Source: a virus. Taken from it: a DNA stretch of 59,858 nt. The notes under the pieces were generated by a model. That model saw nothing but the letters and a program-made list of their open reading frames with translations. It did no database searches and was not told where the DNA came from. Of this stretch, positions 27,483 through 54,988 are shown one piece after another. How positions within the stretch are numbered: the stretch's first letter is position 1; each line of letters opens with the position of its first letter. Position numbers and translations under genes: made by a program. The stretch covers positions 1 through 59,858 of IMG/VR virus record IMGVR_UViG_3300005618_000002; one strand, given 5' to 3'.

Positions 27483-27561
27483 AATAAAAAAATATATATA
27501 TTTTTCTGAAATGCAGCGTTTATTAAAACTTTATATATATATACGATAAATTAAATCGTAT
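27483..27561 (+). repeat. Class II AT-rich element, copy R1
   Basis: An AT-rich inverted stretch is followed by TGAAAT, then TTATTAAAACTTTATATATA, then a perfect inverted repeat ATACGAT (27541-27547) / ATCGTAT (27555-27561). The order and the middle box are shared with copies at 27611, 30356 and, on the minus strand, 39425. It may be a promoter of a different class or an origin iteron. Confidence 0.65.
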
Positions 27562-27610: not shown

Positions 27611-27699
27611 AATAAATAAAAAATATTTTATATATTTTGTGAAAATAAACACTTATTAATAATTTATATATAATATGCAGTTAATTAAATAATTGCATA
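27611..27699 (+). repeat. Class II AT-rich element, copy R2
   Basis: It has the same layout as R1: an A/T hairpin, TGTGAAAAT, the box TTATTAATAATTTATATATA, and an inverted repeat TATGCA (27674-27679) / TGCATA (27694-27699). It lies immediately upstream of a near-consensus sigma70 promoter. Confidence 0.65.
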
Positions 27700-27995: not shown

Positions 27996-28325
27996 ATGAG
28001 AATCAATAACCCAATCAACCCTAACCAACACTTTTACGCCGGCAAATGTAAGGGAAACGAGGCCCCCAAGCATGTCACAGTCTTAGGTGAGGCGAAGAAA
28101 GTGACCCTCGATAAGAAAAAGGCCACGATGTTCGACAGCCCCAAGTCGCCAAAGTACATCTACATTAAGTGCGGTAGCGAATGGCTGTGGGTCGAGGACA
28201 AGAGCATCTTCTCTCTGGAAGCCCTGACCACAATGCCGGTGACCCGAACGGCCAAGACTGTGGATGAGAATACGGCGCCCGAGGCCGAGGGCCCCCTGCC
28301 AGAGTTCACTGGCCAGCAGGGCTAG
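27996..28325 (+). CDS. Small protein of a triplicated phage family, copy A
   Basis: The start is set at ATG 27996 behind GGAG; upstream ATGs lack a site. The 109-residue protein shares with copies B (30471) and C (31641) the N-terminus MRI-NPI, the box FYAGKCKGNEAPKHV, a Lys-rich middle, DSPKSPKYIYIK and a W-V-DKSIF end. The last 25 residues are acidic and variable. It is the first gene of the plus arm under a consensus promoter and is followed by two hairpins, so strong early expression is likely. Function is unknown. Confidence 0.8.
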   Translation: MRINNPINPNQHFYAGKCKGNEAPKHVTVLGEAKKVTLDKKKATMFDSPKSPKYIYIKCGSEWLWVEDKSIFSLEALTTMPVTRTAKTVDENTAPEAEGPLPEFTGQQG

Positions 28326-30355: not shown

Positions 30356-30439
30356 GATAAAATTATTTTTCATCTTTTTTGAAATTTTGTGTGTATTAAA
30401 CATTTATATATAATGTAAGCAAATAAAAATTGTTTACAT
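30356..30439 (+). repeat. Class II AT-rich element, copy R3
   Basis: GATAAAATT and ATTTTTCATC, then TTTTTTGAAATTTTGTGTGT, ATTAAACATTTATATATAAT, and the imperfect inverted repeat ATGTAAGCAA (30413-30422) / TTGTTTACAT (30430-30439). Nearly identical over some 55 bases to the minus-strand copy R4. It lies 32 bases before gene copy B and is its likely promoter. Confidence 0.7.
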
Positions 30440-30470: not shown

Positions 30471-30764
30471 ATGAGAATCGCAAACCCGATCGATGGTGGC
30501 CAGCCTTTTTATGCTGGTAAGTGCAAGAACAACCAAGCCCCTAAGCATGTCGAAGCTCAGGGTGAGAAACGCAAGGCGAAGCTTGATAAGAAGCCGATCA
30601 CGATGTTCGACAGCCCCAAGTCGGCCGAGTACATCTATATCAAGCAGGGGGAAAACTGGCTGTACGTCAAGGACAAGAGCATCTTCGGACTTGACAGTCT
30701 CGAAAGCGTGCCGGTGACGAGAAGCGCCGAGGGCCAACCGGTGGCAGAGGTTGCCGAGGCCTAG
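30471..30764 (+). CDS. Small protein of the triplicated family, copy B
   Basis: The 97-residue protein is the most compact family member: MRIANPID, FYAGKCKNNQAPKHV, DSPKSAEYIYIK and WLYVKDKSIFGLDSL, close to copy A. It has its own AT-rich element upstream (R3), an AGGAG site and a 12-bp terminator hairpin behind it, so it is a one-gene unit built for high expression. The conserved Lys/His/Cys residues suggest nucleic-acid or protein binding. Function is unknown. Confidence 0.8.
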   Translation: MRIANPIDGGQPFYAGKCKNNQAPKHVEAQGEKRKAKLDKKPITMFDSPKSAEYIYIKQGENWLYVKDKSIFGLDSLESVPVTRSAEGQPVAEVAEA

Positions 30765-31640: not shown

Positions 31641-32162
31641 ATGAGACTAGTAAATGACTCCAATGCAGAGACTCCCTTTTATGTGGGGAACTGCAAAAAC
31701 AACACGCCCCCTAAGCATGTTGCCGTCGAAGGCAAGATCGCTGAAGGCACCGAGACCAGTGAGGTCACGGTAAACGGCGAGAAAGCCACGTTGATCAAAT
31801 CCCCCAAGTCGGCTGACTATATCTATATTCAGCGCGGAGACAAATGGGAGTGGGTCAAGGATGCGTCCATGTTCACCGGCGGCCAGAAAGCCTTCGTTGA
31901 CGTTCCCAAGGCGGAGAAGCCTGCTAAAGAGCCCAAGGAAAAGAAAGCCGGCAAGGCGAAGGGAGACACCCCTGAGTCGATCGGTCTTGATCTCGAAGCC
32001 AAGTACAATGTCTATGGCACGGTCATGACCGGCGCTGAGGCTAAGAAAAGGTTCGGTCTCAAGAATATCAAAGACGGTCTCGCGGCAGGCAAGATCGTTC
32101 CCGAAGGCCAGACACCGGAAGCCGGCGACGAGGCTGCAGCCGGTGATACGGGAGCTGCGTAA
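31641..32162 (+). CDS. Small protein of the triplicated family, copy C, with C-terminal extension
   Basis: In this 173-residue protein residues 1-80 match copies A and B (FYVGNCKNNTPPKHV, SPKSADYIYIQ, WEWVKDASMF). A Lys/Ala/Glu-rich linker (about 90-112) then joins a new domain (DLEAKYNVYGTVMTGAEAKK, then RFGLKNIKDGLAAGK) and an acidic Ala/Gly tail. So the family module has been fused to an extra domain here. A 9-bp terminator hairpin follows. Confidence 0.8.
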   Translation: MRLVNDSNAETPFYVGNCKNNTPPKHVAVEGKIAEGTETSEVTVNGEKATLIKSPKSADYIYIQRGDKWEWVKDASMFTGGQKAFVDVPKAEKPAKEPKEKKAGKAKGDTPESIGLDLEAKYNVYGTVMTGAEAKKRFGLKNIKDGLAAGKIVPEGQTPEAGDEAAAGDTGAA

Positions 32163-38085: not shown

Positions 38086-38550
38086 TTATTGCTTAGCCTC
38101 TTGAACCTGTGTCACGCGAGTGTCGTGGCCAACCTTAGTGGTTGTCTTTTTCACAAATTTCATGCGATAGACACCTTGCTTCACTCGGATTAGCCGATTG
38201 TTTTTGGCTAATACGCCGGCCGAGTTAGAGATAGCCATTCGTTCTTCTGAGGTCGGCTCTCGATCATATAATTTTATCCCTATAGCTCTAAGATCTCTCT
38301 GAAAGCCATCCTTCATTATAGAGATGATGTCGTTTCCAATGCCCCGGCGAACTACTGTAGGCTTAGCCTTCACAGCCTTAACTAATCCACCGGTTGTATC
38401 TATCTTTGGAGATCTCGAAGGTTTTATCACCTTTTTGAATCCAGAGATAGCTGCCTGTATCACCTTATTGCGTTTTGTCAACTTGGTGATAGTTGTTTCG
38501 TTGTCCCTATACTCTTTGAGTATGGACTGAATGTCTTTCGATATGCTCAT
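38086..38550 (-). CDS. Putative DNA-binding protein
   Basis: The 154-residue very basic protein has an N-terminal helix (ISKDIQSILKEYRDNETTIT), a Lys/Arg-rich linker, then a winged-helix-like region (REPTSEERMAISNSAGVLAK followed by NNRLIRVKQGVYRMKFV). The layout suggests DNA binding. It overlaps the gene upstream by ATGA. No family was assigned. Confidence 0.55.
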   Translation of the reverse strand: MSISKDIQSILKEYRDNETTITKLTKRNKVIQAAISGFKKVIKPSRSPKIDTTGGLVKAVKAKPTVVRRGIGNDIISIMKDGFQRDLRAIGIKLYDREPTSEERMAISNSAGVLAKNNRLIRVKQGVYRMKFVKKTTTKVGHDTRVTQVQEAKQ

Positions 38551-39308
38551 CTAAGCTGCCTCCGTGCTTTTTCTTCTAACGTCTCATCGGTGAGTGCCAC
38601 CGAATTTCCATCTCTTTCACCAGCTGCAAATCCAGAGTAATTCCCAACATTAAAGTTAGTCTTAGTCTTCTTTGTAGGAATATTGTTCTCAATGAATTGC
38701 TCAGACTTAGCGATCTTGTCACCGATATAAACAAGTGCTGTTGACGTCTGTTCTATGTGGGCTAGAGCTGCTTGATGCCGTTGGTACAGCCTATTACAAA
38801 TCGTCAAAGCATATCCCCACATATACGATCCTTTGTATTGTGTGGGCACTCCACCTTGCTCTTCCTTAAGCCTCTTAGCTTCTAAAAGATAAAGATGTTC
38901 ACCGAGATCTGCGAAGTAGCTGTATAGATCAAAGGATACTTGACGATCAGCATCGATCCCGACGATGATCATTCTTGGCATATCATAAATCACCTTGCAG
39001 CTATTCAGTGTAGCGATCCCCTTGATCAAGTGTCTCTTCCACTCACGTTTAAAGCATTTGTGGAGAAGTTCCTGATCTACATTAATTCCTTGCTCGCTGA
39101 TATCGATTTCAGAGAGGGATAAATTATGCTCATCCAACAACTCTTGAATCTTATCAGCAAACACCTGGGCTTCATGCATCGAACTAATCGTCTCAGCCGA
39201 CTTTTGATGCCTTATCAATTTACGCAATCTATCTACGATTTTGCTGTTCATTGGGTTTGCTTTTAAGGCTCCTTGGTTTGAATCTAGAGAGAAGCTCGTC
39301 AAGTTCAC
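38547..39308 (-). CDS. DUF2786-type protein
   Basis: The N-terminal part (IVDRLRKLIRHQKSAETISS, then EAQVFADKIQELLDEHNLSL) is typical of the DUF2786 domain found in phages and bacteria, followed by a larger uncharacterised domain. The first codon is uncertain: ATG 39308 overlaps the previous gene by 80 bases, while ATG 39251 gives a start right at the domain and a shorter overlap. Function of the family is not known; some members accompany DNA metabolism genes. Confidence 0.75.
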   Translation of the reverse strand: MNLTSFSLDSNQGALKANPMNSKIVDRLRKLIRHQKSAETISSMHEAQVFADKIQELLDEHNLSLSEIDISEQGINVDQELLHKCFKREWKRHLIKGIATLNSCKVIYDMPRMIIVGIDADRQVSFDLYSYFADLGEHLYLLEAKRLKEEQGGVPTQYKGSYMWGYALTICNRLYQRHQAALAHIEQTSTALVYIGDKIAKSEQFIENNIPTKKTKTNFNVGNYSGFAAGERDGNSVALTDETLEEKARRQLR

Positions 39309-39450: not shown

Positions 39451-39505
39451 ACATTATATATAAAGTTTTAATACACACAAAATTTCAAAAAAAGATAAAA
39501 ATAAT
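39425..39505 (-). repeat. Class II AT-rich element, copy R4
   Basis: On the minus strand: GATAAATT and ATTTTTATC, then TTTTTTGAAATTTTGTGTGT, ATTAAAACTTTATATATAAT, then ATGTAT. More than 50 bases nearly match R3 on the plus strand at 30.36 kb. The opposite orientation and the place just upstream of a gene favour a promoter. Confidence 0.7.
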
Positions 39506-40363: not shown

Positions 40364-40612
40364 TTAAGCAAAGGCTCTAATCATCGCATTTTGCAAGTCA
40401 TCTCTATAAATCCAGGCTACACACTCATATTTGGTCAAGATTCTGCCTCTAGAAGTTCTATTTGCTACAAAGTGATTGCCTTTGGTAAAGACACAATACT
40501 CCATCACCTTATATGTGGTTAGAACTATTGTTTGTGCACCTTCCTGAGGTACATCAAATCTCCAATCATTTAGTTCTACCTCAATCTTTTGAATCTGTGT
40601 ATTGGAAGCCAT
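40364..40612 (-). CDS. Hypothetical protein, 82 aa
   Basis: The 82-residue beta-prone protein (NDWRFDVPQEGAQTIVLTTY) with a basic end (SRGRILTKYECVAWIYRD) is the first gene downstream of the structured RNA region. No separate promoter was recognised, so read-through from the RNA promoter is possible. Confidence 0.6.
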   Translation of the reverse strand: MASNTQIQKIEVELNDWRFDVPQEGAQTIVLTTYKVMEYCVFTKGNHFVANRTSRGRILTKYECVAWIYRDDLQNAMIRAFA

Positions 40613-40764: not shown

Positions 40765-41124
40765 TTTTATTGGGGAAAGGTGATCTTCTCCCTCACCCTT
40801 CCCCTGCAAACGGTGCAAACCCAATGAACCGTTTGCAAAATTGCGAGAATGGCACTCCAACAGGGCGTCTTTGTGCCATTCTCTCTGCTGCACGTCTCCC
40901 ACACCGTGCAACAGATATGTATGGATAGTGGCCTTGAGCTTAGCAGGACCTTTGATCTTTTCTCCGCTCGGTGCTCCCCCATCAAGCATATCAGGCATAG
41001 CTCGACTATGGATTATTGGGATTCCCCCGCCGCAGTGATACCCTTCGGCCTTTCTCCGGTCTTTATCACTATCCAATCTTTTATCAAATATCCCTAAGTC
41101 GTTTAGTTTCAATATTTAACCATT
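40765..41124 (-). ncRNA. Putative new structured non-coding RNA, about 360 nt
   Basis: A class I promoter starts a transcript near 41124 with no convincing coding frame. Read on the minus strand: a 9-bp helix 41067-41075/40922-40930 closes a 5' domain with smaller stems (41035-41040/41064-41069 and 40996-41000/41006-41010). Four consecutive hairpins follow: 40905-40914/40885-40894 (10 bp, one G-U), 40873-40883/40845-40855 (11 bp), 40828-40836/40806-40814 (9 bp) and 40793-40804/40772-40783 (12 bp, one G-U), then AATAAAAGTTTT. Both G-U pairs would be A-C mismatches on the other strand. A 125-codon frame starting with TTG runs through it but lacks a ribosome site. No known RNA class was recognised. 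Confidence 0.75.
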
Positions 41125-41130
41125 GAATAC

Positions 41131-41159
41131 ATTATATACTGTTTTTTATAAAATGTAAA
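41131..41159 (-). promoter_or_regulatory. Class I promoter of the structured RNA
   Basis: TTTACA (41154-41159), 17 bases, perfect TATAAT (41131-41136) on the minus strand. The upstream GATAA/TTATC inverted repeat (about 41165-41182) overlaps the end of the SSB gene. Confidence 0.85.
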
Positions 41160-41180
41160 CAGTGTGATAAAAAAAGTTAT

Positions 41181-50290: not shown

Positions 50291-50685
50291 TTGCCTTCAA
50301 CCACGTATCCAAGTTTTCTGGCCTTAGTCATCGACAAGCCCGATTTTTCTCCACGATCCAAGTCTCTAGTACGTTCTACATCAAACGGCTGGAACTTAAT
50401 AAAAGTTCCTTCCTTCTTGACAGTAATCCATACCCGACCTTTGTCGTCTTGCCAGTGAATGAAGTCTCCAAATGGTTCTCCATCCTCATCCCACTCGGCT
50501 CCGGAACCAGTCAGCTCACACAACCTTTTAAGAACCGCATGCTTACGCGCGTAATAAGCTTTGATCTCAGGTTCTTGATCATCAAGCTTATAAAGTTCTT
50601 CCTTAAGCTGAACGACATCCATTTGAGAAACCGGGTAATCCTTGTAAGTGACACCCGTACTCTCTAAAGGCTCTCCCATATCCAT
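50287..50685 (-). CDS. Hypothetical protein, 132 aa
   Basis: The 132-residue protein has a helical N-terminal half (QLKEELYKLDDQEPEIKAYY) and a beta C-terminal part (DDKGRVWITVKKEGTFIKFQ). It is the first gene behind the promoter at 50730-50758, coupled by ATGA to the glycosyltransferase-like gene. Possibly an accessory of it. No family was recognised. Confidence 0.6.
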   Translation of the reverse strand: MDMGEPLESTGVTYKDYPVSQMDVVQLKEELYKLDDQEPEIKAYYARKHAVLKRLCELTGSGAEWDEDGEPFGDFIHWQDDKGRVWITVKKEGTFIKFQPFDVERTRDLDRGEKSGLSMTKARKLGYVVEGK

Positions 50686-54029: not shown

Positions 54030-54988
54030 TACTTTTTTGGTTTATCCTCACCTTTAACTTTGACCTCAGCAAAGTGAATCAAGTGATCAGCACCTTTAAC
54101 AGATAGATCACTTGGCTCACATCCCATAACTTCTAAGCAGAATGCCTCATCAGTTATGCCAAGCTGCTCAGCGAACGCCCTAAGCTTCCCGAGTTGGCCA
54201 ACTTCAATGACGTCGTCAATCTCAGTTGCGTAGTACTCGGGTCCCATCGTTCGCTGAGCAGCGGCAATAGGTGCCGGCGTCCTTAGTTTCGCCGGCACTT
54301 GCACCTTTTCGGCTGGAGAGGCGTCCGCCGTTTTAGGTGCAACCTCAACTTCTTTAGGCTCTTCCTTAGGTTCAGGTTCCTTAGCAACCTTCTCTGCTGG
54401 TGGAGGCTGTGAAGTAGGATCTTCTTTAATCATTCGATCAACTGGACTAAGATCATCGTCTCCATCCTTATGCTCTTCCCCAGACATCACTTCCTCAATA
54501 GTTTGAGGATGGATATTCATACGAATTTGGAGATTGTGAACTATTGGATGTAACTTACAATCAGCATCCCACGTCGTACGTATGCGCTCTTCATTAATAG
54601 CATAGTAGAGCTTGCAAAAAATCACGCTTTGATCTTTACCGGGCGACGCCACCAACATGACCAGCTCATCAGTCATGTCTAAAGTCTGTGCAGCCAATAG
54701 AAATGAGCGAGTGAAATAAGTCTCGACACCACTTCTAATGATGTAACGCTTGTCAGCTTGAAAGCTAATATCAAGCTTTATTGCATCTTTTCCCTTATGA
54801 GTCTTCTTAACAAGCTTAAGACCCATAAGACGGCCGGTCAGTGCTTTATGCGGAATTGGAATCTTCTTATTGTTGTTCTTATAATCCAATTCATACCACG
54901 GACAATCGGGATCGCCACTATCACCGACATAGATATATGTTGGCACAGGAGGATCTCCGAACCCTAACTTGATGTCTTCTTCTTTCAT
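54029..54988 (-). CDS. Hypothetical replication-associated protein with Pro/Glu linker
   Basis: The protein has 319 residues. Residues 1-160 are beta-prone (YIYVGDSGDPDCPWYELDYK, then RLMGLKLVKK), perhaps a DNA-binding core. A Pro/Glu/Lys-rich linker (about 190-235) joins a C-terminal helical domain (LGKLRAFAEQLGITDEAFCL). It is the first gene behind the promoter at 55021 and lies beside the polymerase. Function is unknown. Confidence 0.6.
   Translation of the reverse strand: MKEEDIKLGFGDPPVPTYIYVGDSGDPDCPWYELDYKNNNKKIPIPHKALTGRLMGLKLVKKTHKGKDAIKLDISFQADKRYIIRSGVETYFTRSFLLAAQTLDMTDELVMLVASPGKDQSVIFCKLYYAINEERIRTTWDADCKLHPIVHNLQIRMNIHPQTIEEVMSGEEHKDGDDDLSPVDRMIKEDPTSQPPPAEKVAKEPEPKEEPKEVEVAPKTADASPAEKVQVPAKLRTPAPIAAAQRTMGPEYYATEIDDVIEVGQLGKLRAFAEQLGITDEAFCLEVMGCEPSDLSVKGADHLIHFAEVKVKGEDKPKK

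Follow-up and report, generated by a model that had tools for sequence, protein, structure and literature searches.

A structured phage RNA with a hairpin loop complementary to the translation start of a DUF2786 gene: a putative antisense regulator

We examined a 59,858-nt stretch of viral DNA (the window; positions 1 to 59,858 of IMG/VR virus record IMGVR_UViG_3300005618_000002) and found that the minus strand at 40765-41124 probably specifies a regulatory RNA of about 360 nt that folds into several hairpins and does not code for protein; it would be expressed from a class I promoter and be antisense to the translation start of a DUF2786/phrog_421 gene. The fold, the copies of the promoter, the complementarity and the rarity of that complementarity are all computed results. 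The original prediction had described a structured RNA of no recognised family, driven by a promoter of its own, and the fold statistics, the repetition of the promoter and the lack of an Rfam match bear this out. It had left the function open; complementarity to the start codon of the DUF2786 gene suggests one. An orphan RNA without a family match thus receives, from sequence alone, a specific and testable target, and an unusually clear one.

The window has a 100-bp terminal repeat and is therefore probably a complete phage genome, of 59,758 bp plus the repeat. A second IMG/VR contig of the same phage, IMGVR_UViG_3300026095_000310, spans the terminal-repeat junction and is 99.995-100% identical to the window at the loci compared. 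A tblastn search of 50,697 phage records with the terminase found no match, and a pattern search of IMG/VR and GTDB contigs returned no relative of it. For the helicase and polymerase, database searches found relatives with about 25-34% identity at best, and the structured RNA was absent from all of the unrelated phages with ~30% helicase identity. A hunt based on the neighbours of the RNA (SSB, helicase, TerL, DNA polymerase and the promoter) retrieved only the same phage and unrelated phages. Judged by these comparisons, the phage lacks close relatives in the databases searched. The phage, whose terminase likewise has no near relative in those collections, possibly represents a new family-level lineage.

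The region and the elements of its predicted fold are as follows; RNA nucleotide n corresponds to window position 41125-n.

40765-41124, minus strand: structured RNA (z -6.1), no Rfam match; transcription and 3' end are predicted
40922-41075, minus strand: 5' multibranched domain, closed by the 9-bp long-range helix; z -2.2, marginal against shuffles
41067-41075 with 40922-40930, minus strand: long-range helix, 9 bp, UGGAUAGUG/CACUAUCCA, p 0.98
40884-40915, minus strand: hairpin A, 11 bp, loop GUGUGGGAGA, p 0.98, z -4.7
40845-40883, minus strand: hairpin B, 11 bp, p 1.00, z -5.8
40805-40837, minus strand: hairpin C, 10 bp, loop UCAUUGGGUUUGC, p 0.98, z -3.7
40772-40804, minus strand: hairpin D, 12 bp, loop GGGAGAAGA, p 0.99, z -4.9; last in the structured region

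Compared with shuffled controls, the minus strand of 40765-41124 proved exceptionally stable, as the original prediction implied: it folds at -135.9 kcal/mol (z -6.11), and none of 100 shuffles was equally stable. The plus strand folds at -106.2 kcal/mol (z -3.65 against shuffles). Almost all of the excess stability of the RNA is carried by the four adjacent hairpins: the part that holds them, 40765-40920, has a z of -8.6 on the minus strand and -7.9 on the plus strand, and the 5' half shows a marginal excess (z -2.3). Downstream of the hairpins, up to the next gene, the flank has nothing special in its folding (z -0.2 to -0.3). The most stable 180-nt segment of the minus strand genome-wide falls in the RNA region (-82.5 kcal/mol). 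Elsewhere, two genic stretches on the minus strand, 54181-54360 and 50311-50490, have folding z values near -7 (15 shuffles each). The long-range helix and the four adjacent hairpins had been anticipated, and each hairpin forms with p of at least 0.98, but their lengths are 11, 11, 10 and 12 bp rather than 10, 11, 9 and 12 bp. The G-U pairs noted earlier in two stems were located in hairpins A and D; being two pairs, they are weak evidence of strand. The base composition does differ from the AT-rich surroundings, with a G+C content of 47.5% in the RNA region against 42.5% in the genome and 18-33% in the flanks.

Could the hairpins be secondary to a protein gene, or the RNA have a dual function? 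The region contains a frame of 125 codons with a TTG start at 41112, and the statement that there is no convincing gene here holds in that this frame lacks a Shine-Dalgarno sequence, but is too strong in that its coding statistics are intermediate. An open run of this length has a chance of 0.004 in sequences of the same structure, the codon score lies above most spurious frames and the amino-acid composition is gene-like. The frame would begin ~12 nt past the likely transcript start, where it overlaps the stop codon of a short AUG frame of 4 codons. Its codon score is nonetheless below that of every gene tested and is exceeded by those of two reverse frames in this stretch, and the frame's histidine content of 6.4% is equalled in just 1% of gene segments. 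We found no relatives of it in Pfam, PHROGs, NCBIfam, phages or IMG/VR. AlphaFold models from single sequences gave no information (pLDDT 36 for the frame; the conserved DUF2786 protein, taken as a reference, scored 39). The fold of the region is far more stable than that of synonymous alternatives to the frame (z -5.0 against synonymous-codon shuffles). Hence, the codons do not account for the structure. We consider a protein gene or dual-function RNA unlikely.

Upstream of the RNA, and of its predicted target, lie promoter-like elements of two classes.

41131-41160, minus strand: class I promoter of the RNA, TTTACA-17-TATAAT, 11 of 12 consensus bases, sigma-70-like
39452-39480, minus strand: class II promoter-like element, TTGTGT..TATATATAATG, upstream of the DUF2786 operon; repeated on the plus strand
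30387-30415, 27514-27542 and, weakly, 27645-27674, plus strand: copies of the class II element (TTTTTTGAAATTTTGTGTGTATTAAA..TATATATAATG), preceding the rightward gene cluster

The class I element is ~55 bp long and occurs in seven copies in the genome, all on the minus strand, one of them directly upstream of the hairpin RNA; the strong promoter that had been predicted is thus one of a repeated set. Transcription would start near 41124. The suggestion that hairpin D ends the transcript found no support: no T run follows it, and no intrinsic terminator was found there or between the RNA and the next gene. We tentatively place the 3' end near 40765, where the structure stops. The class II element differs from the seven class I promoters, and since it precedes the target operon, the RNA and its predicted DUF2786 target seem to belong to different promoter classes. 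The rightward cluster is the only one in the genome and includes three small paralogous genes (27996-28325, 30471-30764 and 31641-32162, plus strand), for which we obtained no PHROGs match.

Known RNA families offered no identity for the region. As the original prediction had supposed for GOLLD, ROOL and 6S, nothing in Rfam reached the gathering score, OLE included. The sole Rfam match, mir-5697 (E 0.29), lies below threshold and was set aside as chance, and tRNA and tmRNA were rejected as well. An RNA sequence search of phages and plasmids gave no homologue, and exact patterns of the RNA in IMG/VR and GTDB contigs recovered only the same phage and no diverged homologue. One GTDB pattern match was dismissed as a 20-nt chance match within an apparent nuoH gene.

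A self-comparison revealed that the loop of hairpin C is complementary to the start of a gene 1.5 kb away on the same strand.

38547-39251, minus strand: target gene, encoding a DUF2786/phrog_421 protein of 234 aa; ATG at 39251
39238-39260, minus strand: target site GCAAACCCAAUGAAC-A-GCAAAAU, spanning the DUF2786 start codon
40815-40829, minus strand: antisense block 1, GUUCAUUGGGUUUGC, complementary to 39246-39260 over 15 perfect bp
40835-40841, minus strand: antisense block 2, AUUUUGC, complementary over 7 bp to 39238-39244, inside the gene (cofold)

The target protein matches phrog_421 (E 1.4e-24) and DUF2786 (E 9.8e-6), and since the phrog_421 profile aligns from Met1, the gene start at 39251 is supported. 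Block 1 (RNA nucleotides 296-310) comprises the entire 13-nt loop of hairpin C and 2 stem nucleotides, and its 15-bp duplex covers, in the DUF2786 mRNA, the AUG together with the spacer before it and the codon after it. Block 2 (RNA nucleotides 284-290, with mRNA 39244-39238) is colinear with block 1; in the cofold, a 5-nt bulge on the RNA side and a single A on the mRNA side lie between the two. Both partners are predicted to be largely open, at an opening cost of 2.8 kcal/mol for loop C and 2.9 kcal/mol for the target site, and the pairing nucleotides are exposed in the predicted fold as the 13-nt loop.

How rare is such a match? An exhaustive search of both strands of the genome found five antisense matches of at least 15 nt to the 82 start regions. 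Four of them are shared promoter motifs, and the pairing of loop C with DUF2786 is the sole remaining one. Only 2 of 3000 dinucleotide-shuffled RNAs reached 15 nt, block 2 has a chance occurrence of 0.006, and none of 1000 shuffled loops reached the pairing energy at 63 start regions; these values are strong, but the relation was found post hoc rather than predicted and they are to be read so. With opening costs included, the site ranks first of ~13,750 contiguous pairings on both strands (-15.5 kcal/mol). In a whole-hairpin energy scan without seed or accessibility rules it tops its own strand only and is not an outlier; that scan is too noisy for discrimination. Loops A, B and D have no start-region target comparable to that of loop C. 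The next-best pairings of loop C on the transcribed strand are one of 11 bp at +9 to +19 in gene 30471 and one of 10 bp located 36 nt before gene 32677; each of these genes belongs to the rightward cluster. They are weak and may be chance, but suggest that more than one target is conceivable.

The antisense match also bears on two readings in which the hairpins would serve neither as a separate RNA nor as a gene. In one, they belong to an extended 5' leader for the genes that follow, the first of which starts at 40612, and act in cis on transcription or translation, for instance as an antitermination or stability element. The lack of a terminator ahead of the next gene and a promoter-to-ATG distance of 510 nt are consistent with this. 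However, the hairpins stop ~150 nt before the next start, the intervening stretch has the unexceptional folding given above, and the match to DUF2786 is left unexplained; we regard a leader as quite improbable. In the other, the inverted repeats function as DNA, for example as a replication origin or by binding a protein that has a second site at the DUF2786 start. Nearly as exceptional on the plus strand as on the minus (the z of -7.9 above), the four repeats adjoin SSB and flank AT-rich sequence (82% A+T), and the common 15-mer is, at the DNA level, an inverted copy. Yet the imperfections in the stems are G-U pairs on the transcribed strand, a promoter stands directly upstream, the four repeats share no iteron, and the 15-mer coincides with a loop and a start codon, which a DNA site would not need. 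We therefore give this reading little credence. A sponge of the CsrB/RsmZ type, whose GGA motifs would sequester a host regulator, is hardly credible and was rejected: the size is CsrB-like, several loops carry GGA and GGAG occurs 6 times against 2.8 expected, but GGA as such shows no enrichment (10 found, 10.9 expected).

For the antisense RNA that we favor, transcription, base pairing in the cell, repression of the target, the timing and a trans mode of action are all inferred; it might work as follows. Transcription from the class I promoter would yield the RNA, whose loop C would nucleate pairing at the exposed DUF2786 start region. Pairing could then grow to 22 bp and mask the AUG, keeping the ribosome from binding; RNase III might in addition cleave the duplex. 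With the AUG inside the helix, the effect to be expected is repression. The RNA would in this way shut off a class II-promoter gene once the class I promoters fire; the class II element upstream of the target operon is common to the rightward small-gene cluster. Since no terminator separates the RNA from what follows, a cis interaction within one transcript is also possible. The AGGAG of the target stands 17 nt from its AUG. A weak site of 8 nt complementary to loop D lies at 39287-39294 (minus strand), 27 nt upstream of the loop C site, and in the predicted fold this site is also the partner of the target's AGGAG. A contact with loop D there could thus free the Shine-Dalgarno sequence, that is, activate rather than repress.

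A broader version, which we hold only tentatively and think rather unlikely, would make the RNA an RNAIII-like master riboregulator of the phage. The loops of one class I RNA would shut down several class II mRNAs (39251 and, more weakly, 30471 and 32677) and switch gene classes post-transcriptionally, hairpin C having come from an inverted copy of the target start. Should the proposed regulation prove true, an RNA connects two promoter classes in a phage from the environment for which the collections searched contain no close relative.

Phage RNAs with an assigned target are few outside the lambdoid and P1 groups. Among large structured RNAs of bacteria and phages, GOLLD, ROOL and OLE are ornate and homo-oligomeric (PMC12286853); the phage RNA is likewise large and structured, but has no Rfam match. 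Closer in proposed function are the phage antisense regulators P22 sar RNA, lambda OOP RNA and P1/P7 c4 RNA, which base-pair with mRNA of the same phage (PMC12197685), as we propose here. P22 sar hinders translation initiation of ant (PMC12197685), and pairing at the start codon is predicted in our case. The genes for OOP and sar lie opposite or beside those of their targets (PMC12197685), whereas here RNA and target lie 1.5 kb apart on the same strand. The RNA also differs from sar, OOP and c4 in being ~360 nt long and in carrying the pairing sequence in the loop of a single hairpin within a large scaffold, and shares no sequence relation with them. Lambda PreS and other phage sRNAs regulate host mRNAs by base pairing, the mode of action proposed here, but PreS targets host dnaN and is Hfq-dependent (PMC12197685), whereas the predicted target here is a phage gene. 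S. aureus RNAIII, like the predicted phage RNA, is large, has many hairpins and pairs with mRNA start regions partly through hairpin loops (PMC2837412). RNAIII is a host quorum-sensing effector whose pairing has been shown by experiment (PMC2837412), whereas that of the phage RNA, which has no sequence relation to it, is predicted. Two contacts on one mRNA are a trait of RNAIII (PMC2837412) and may be possible for the phage RNA too.
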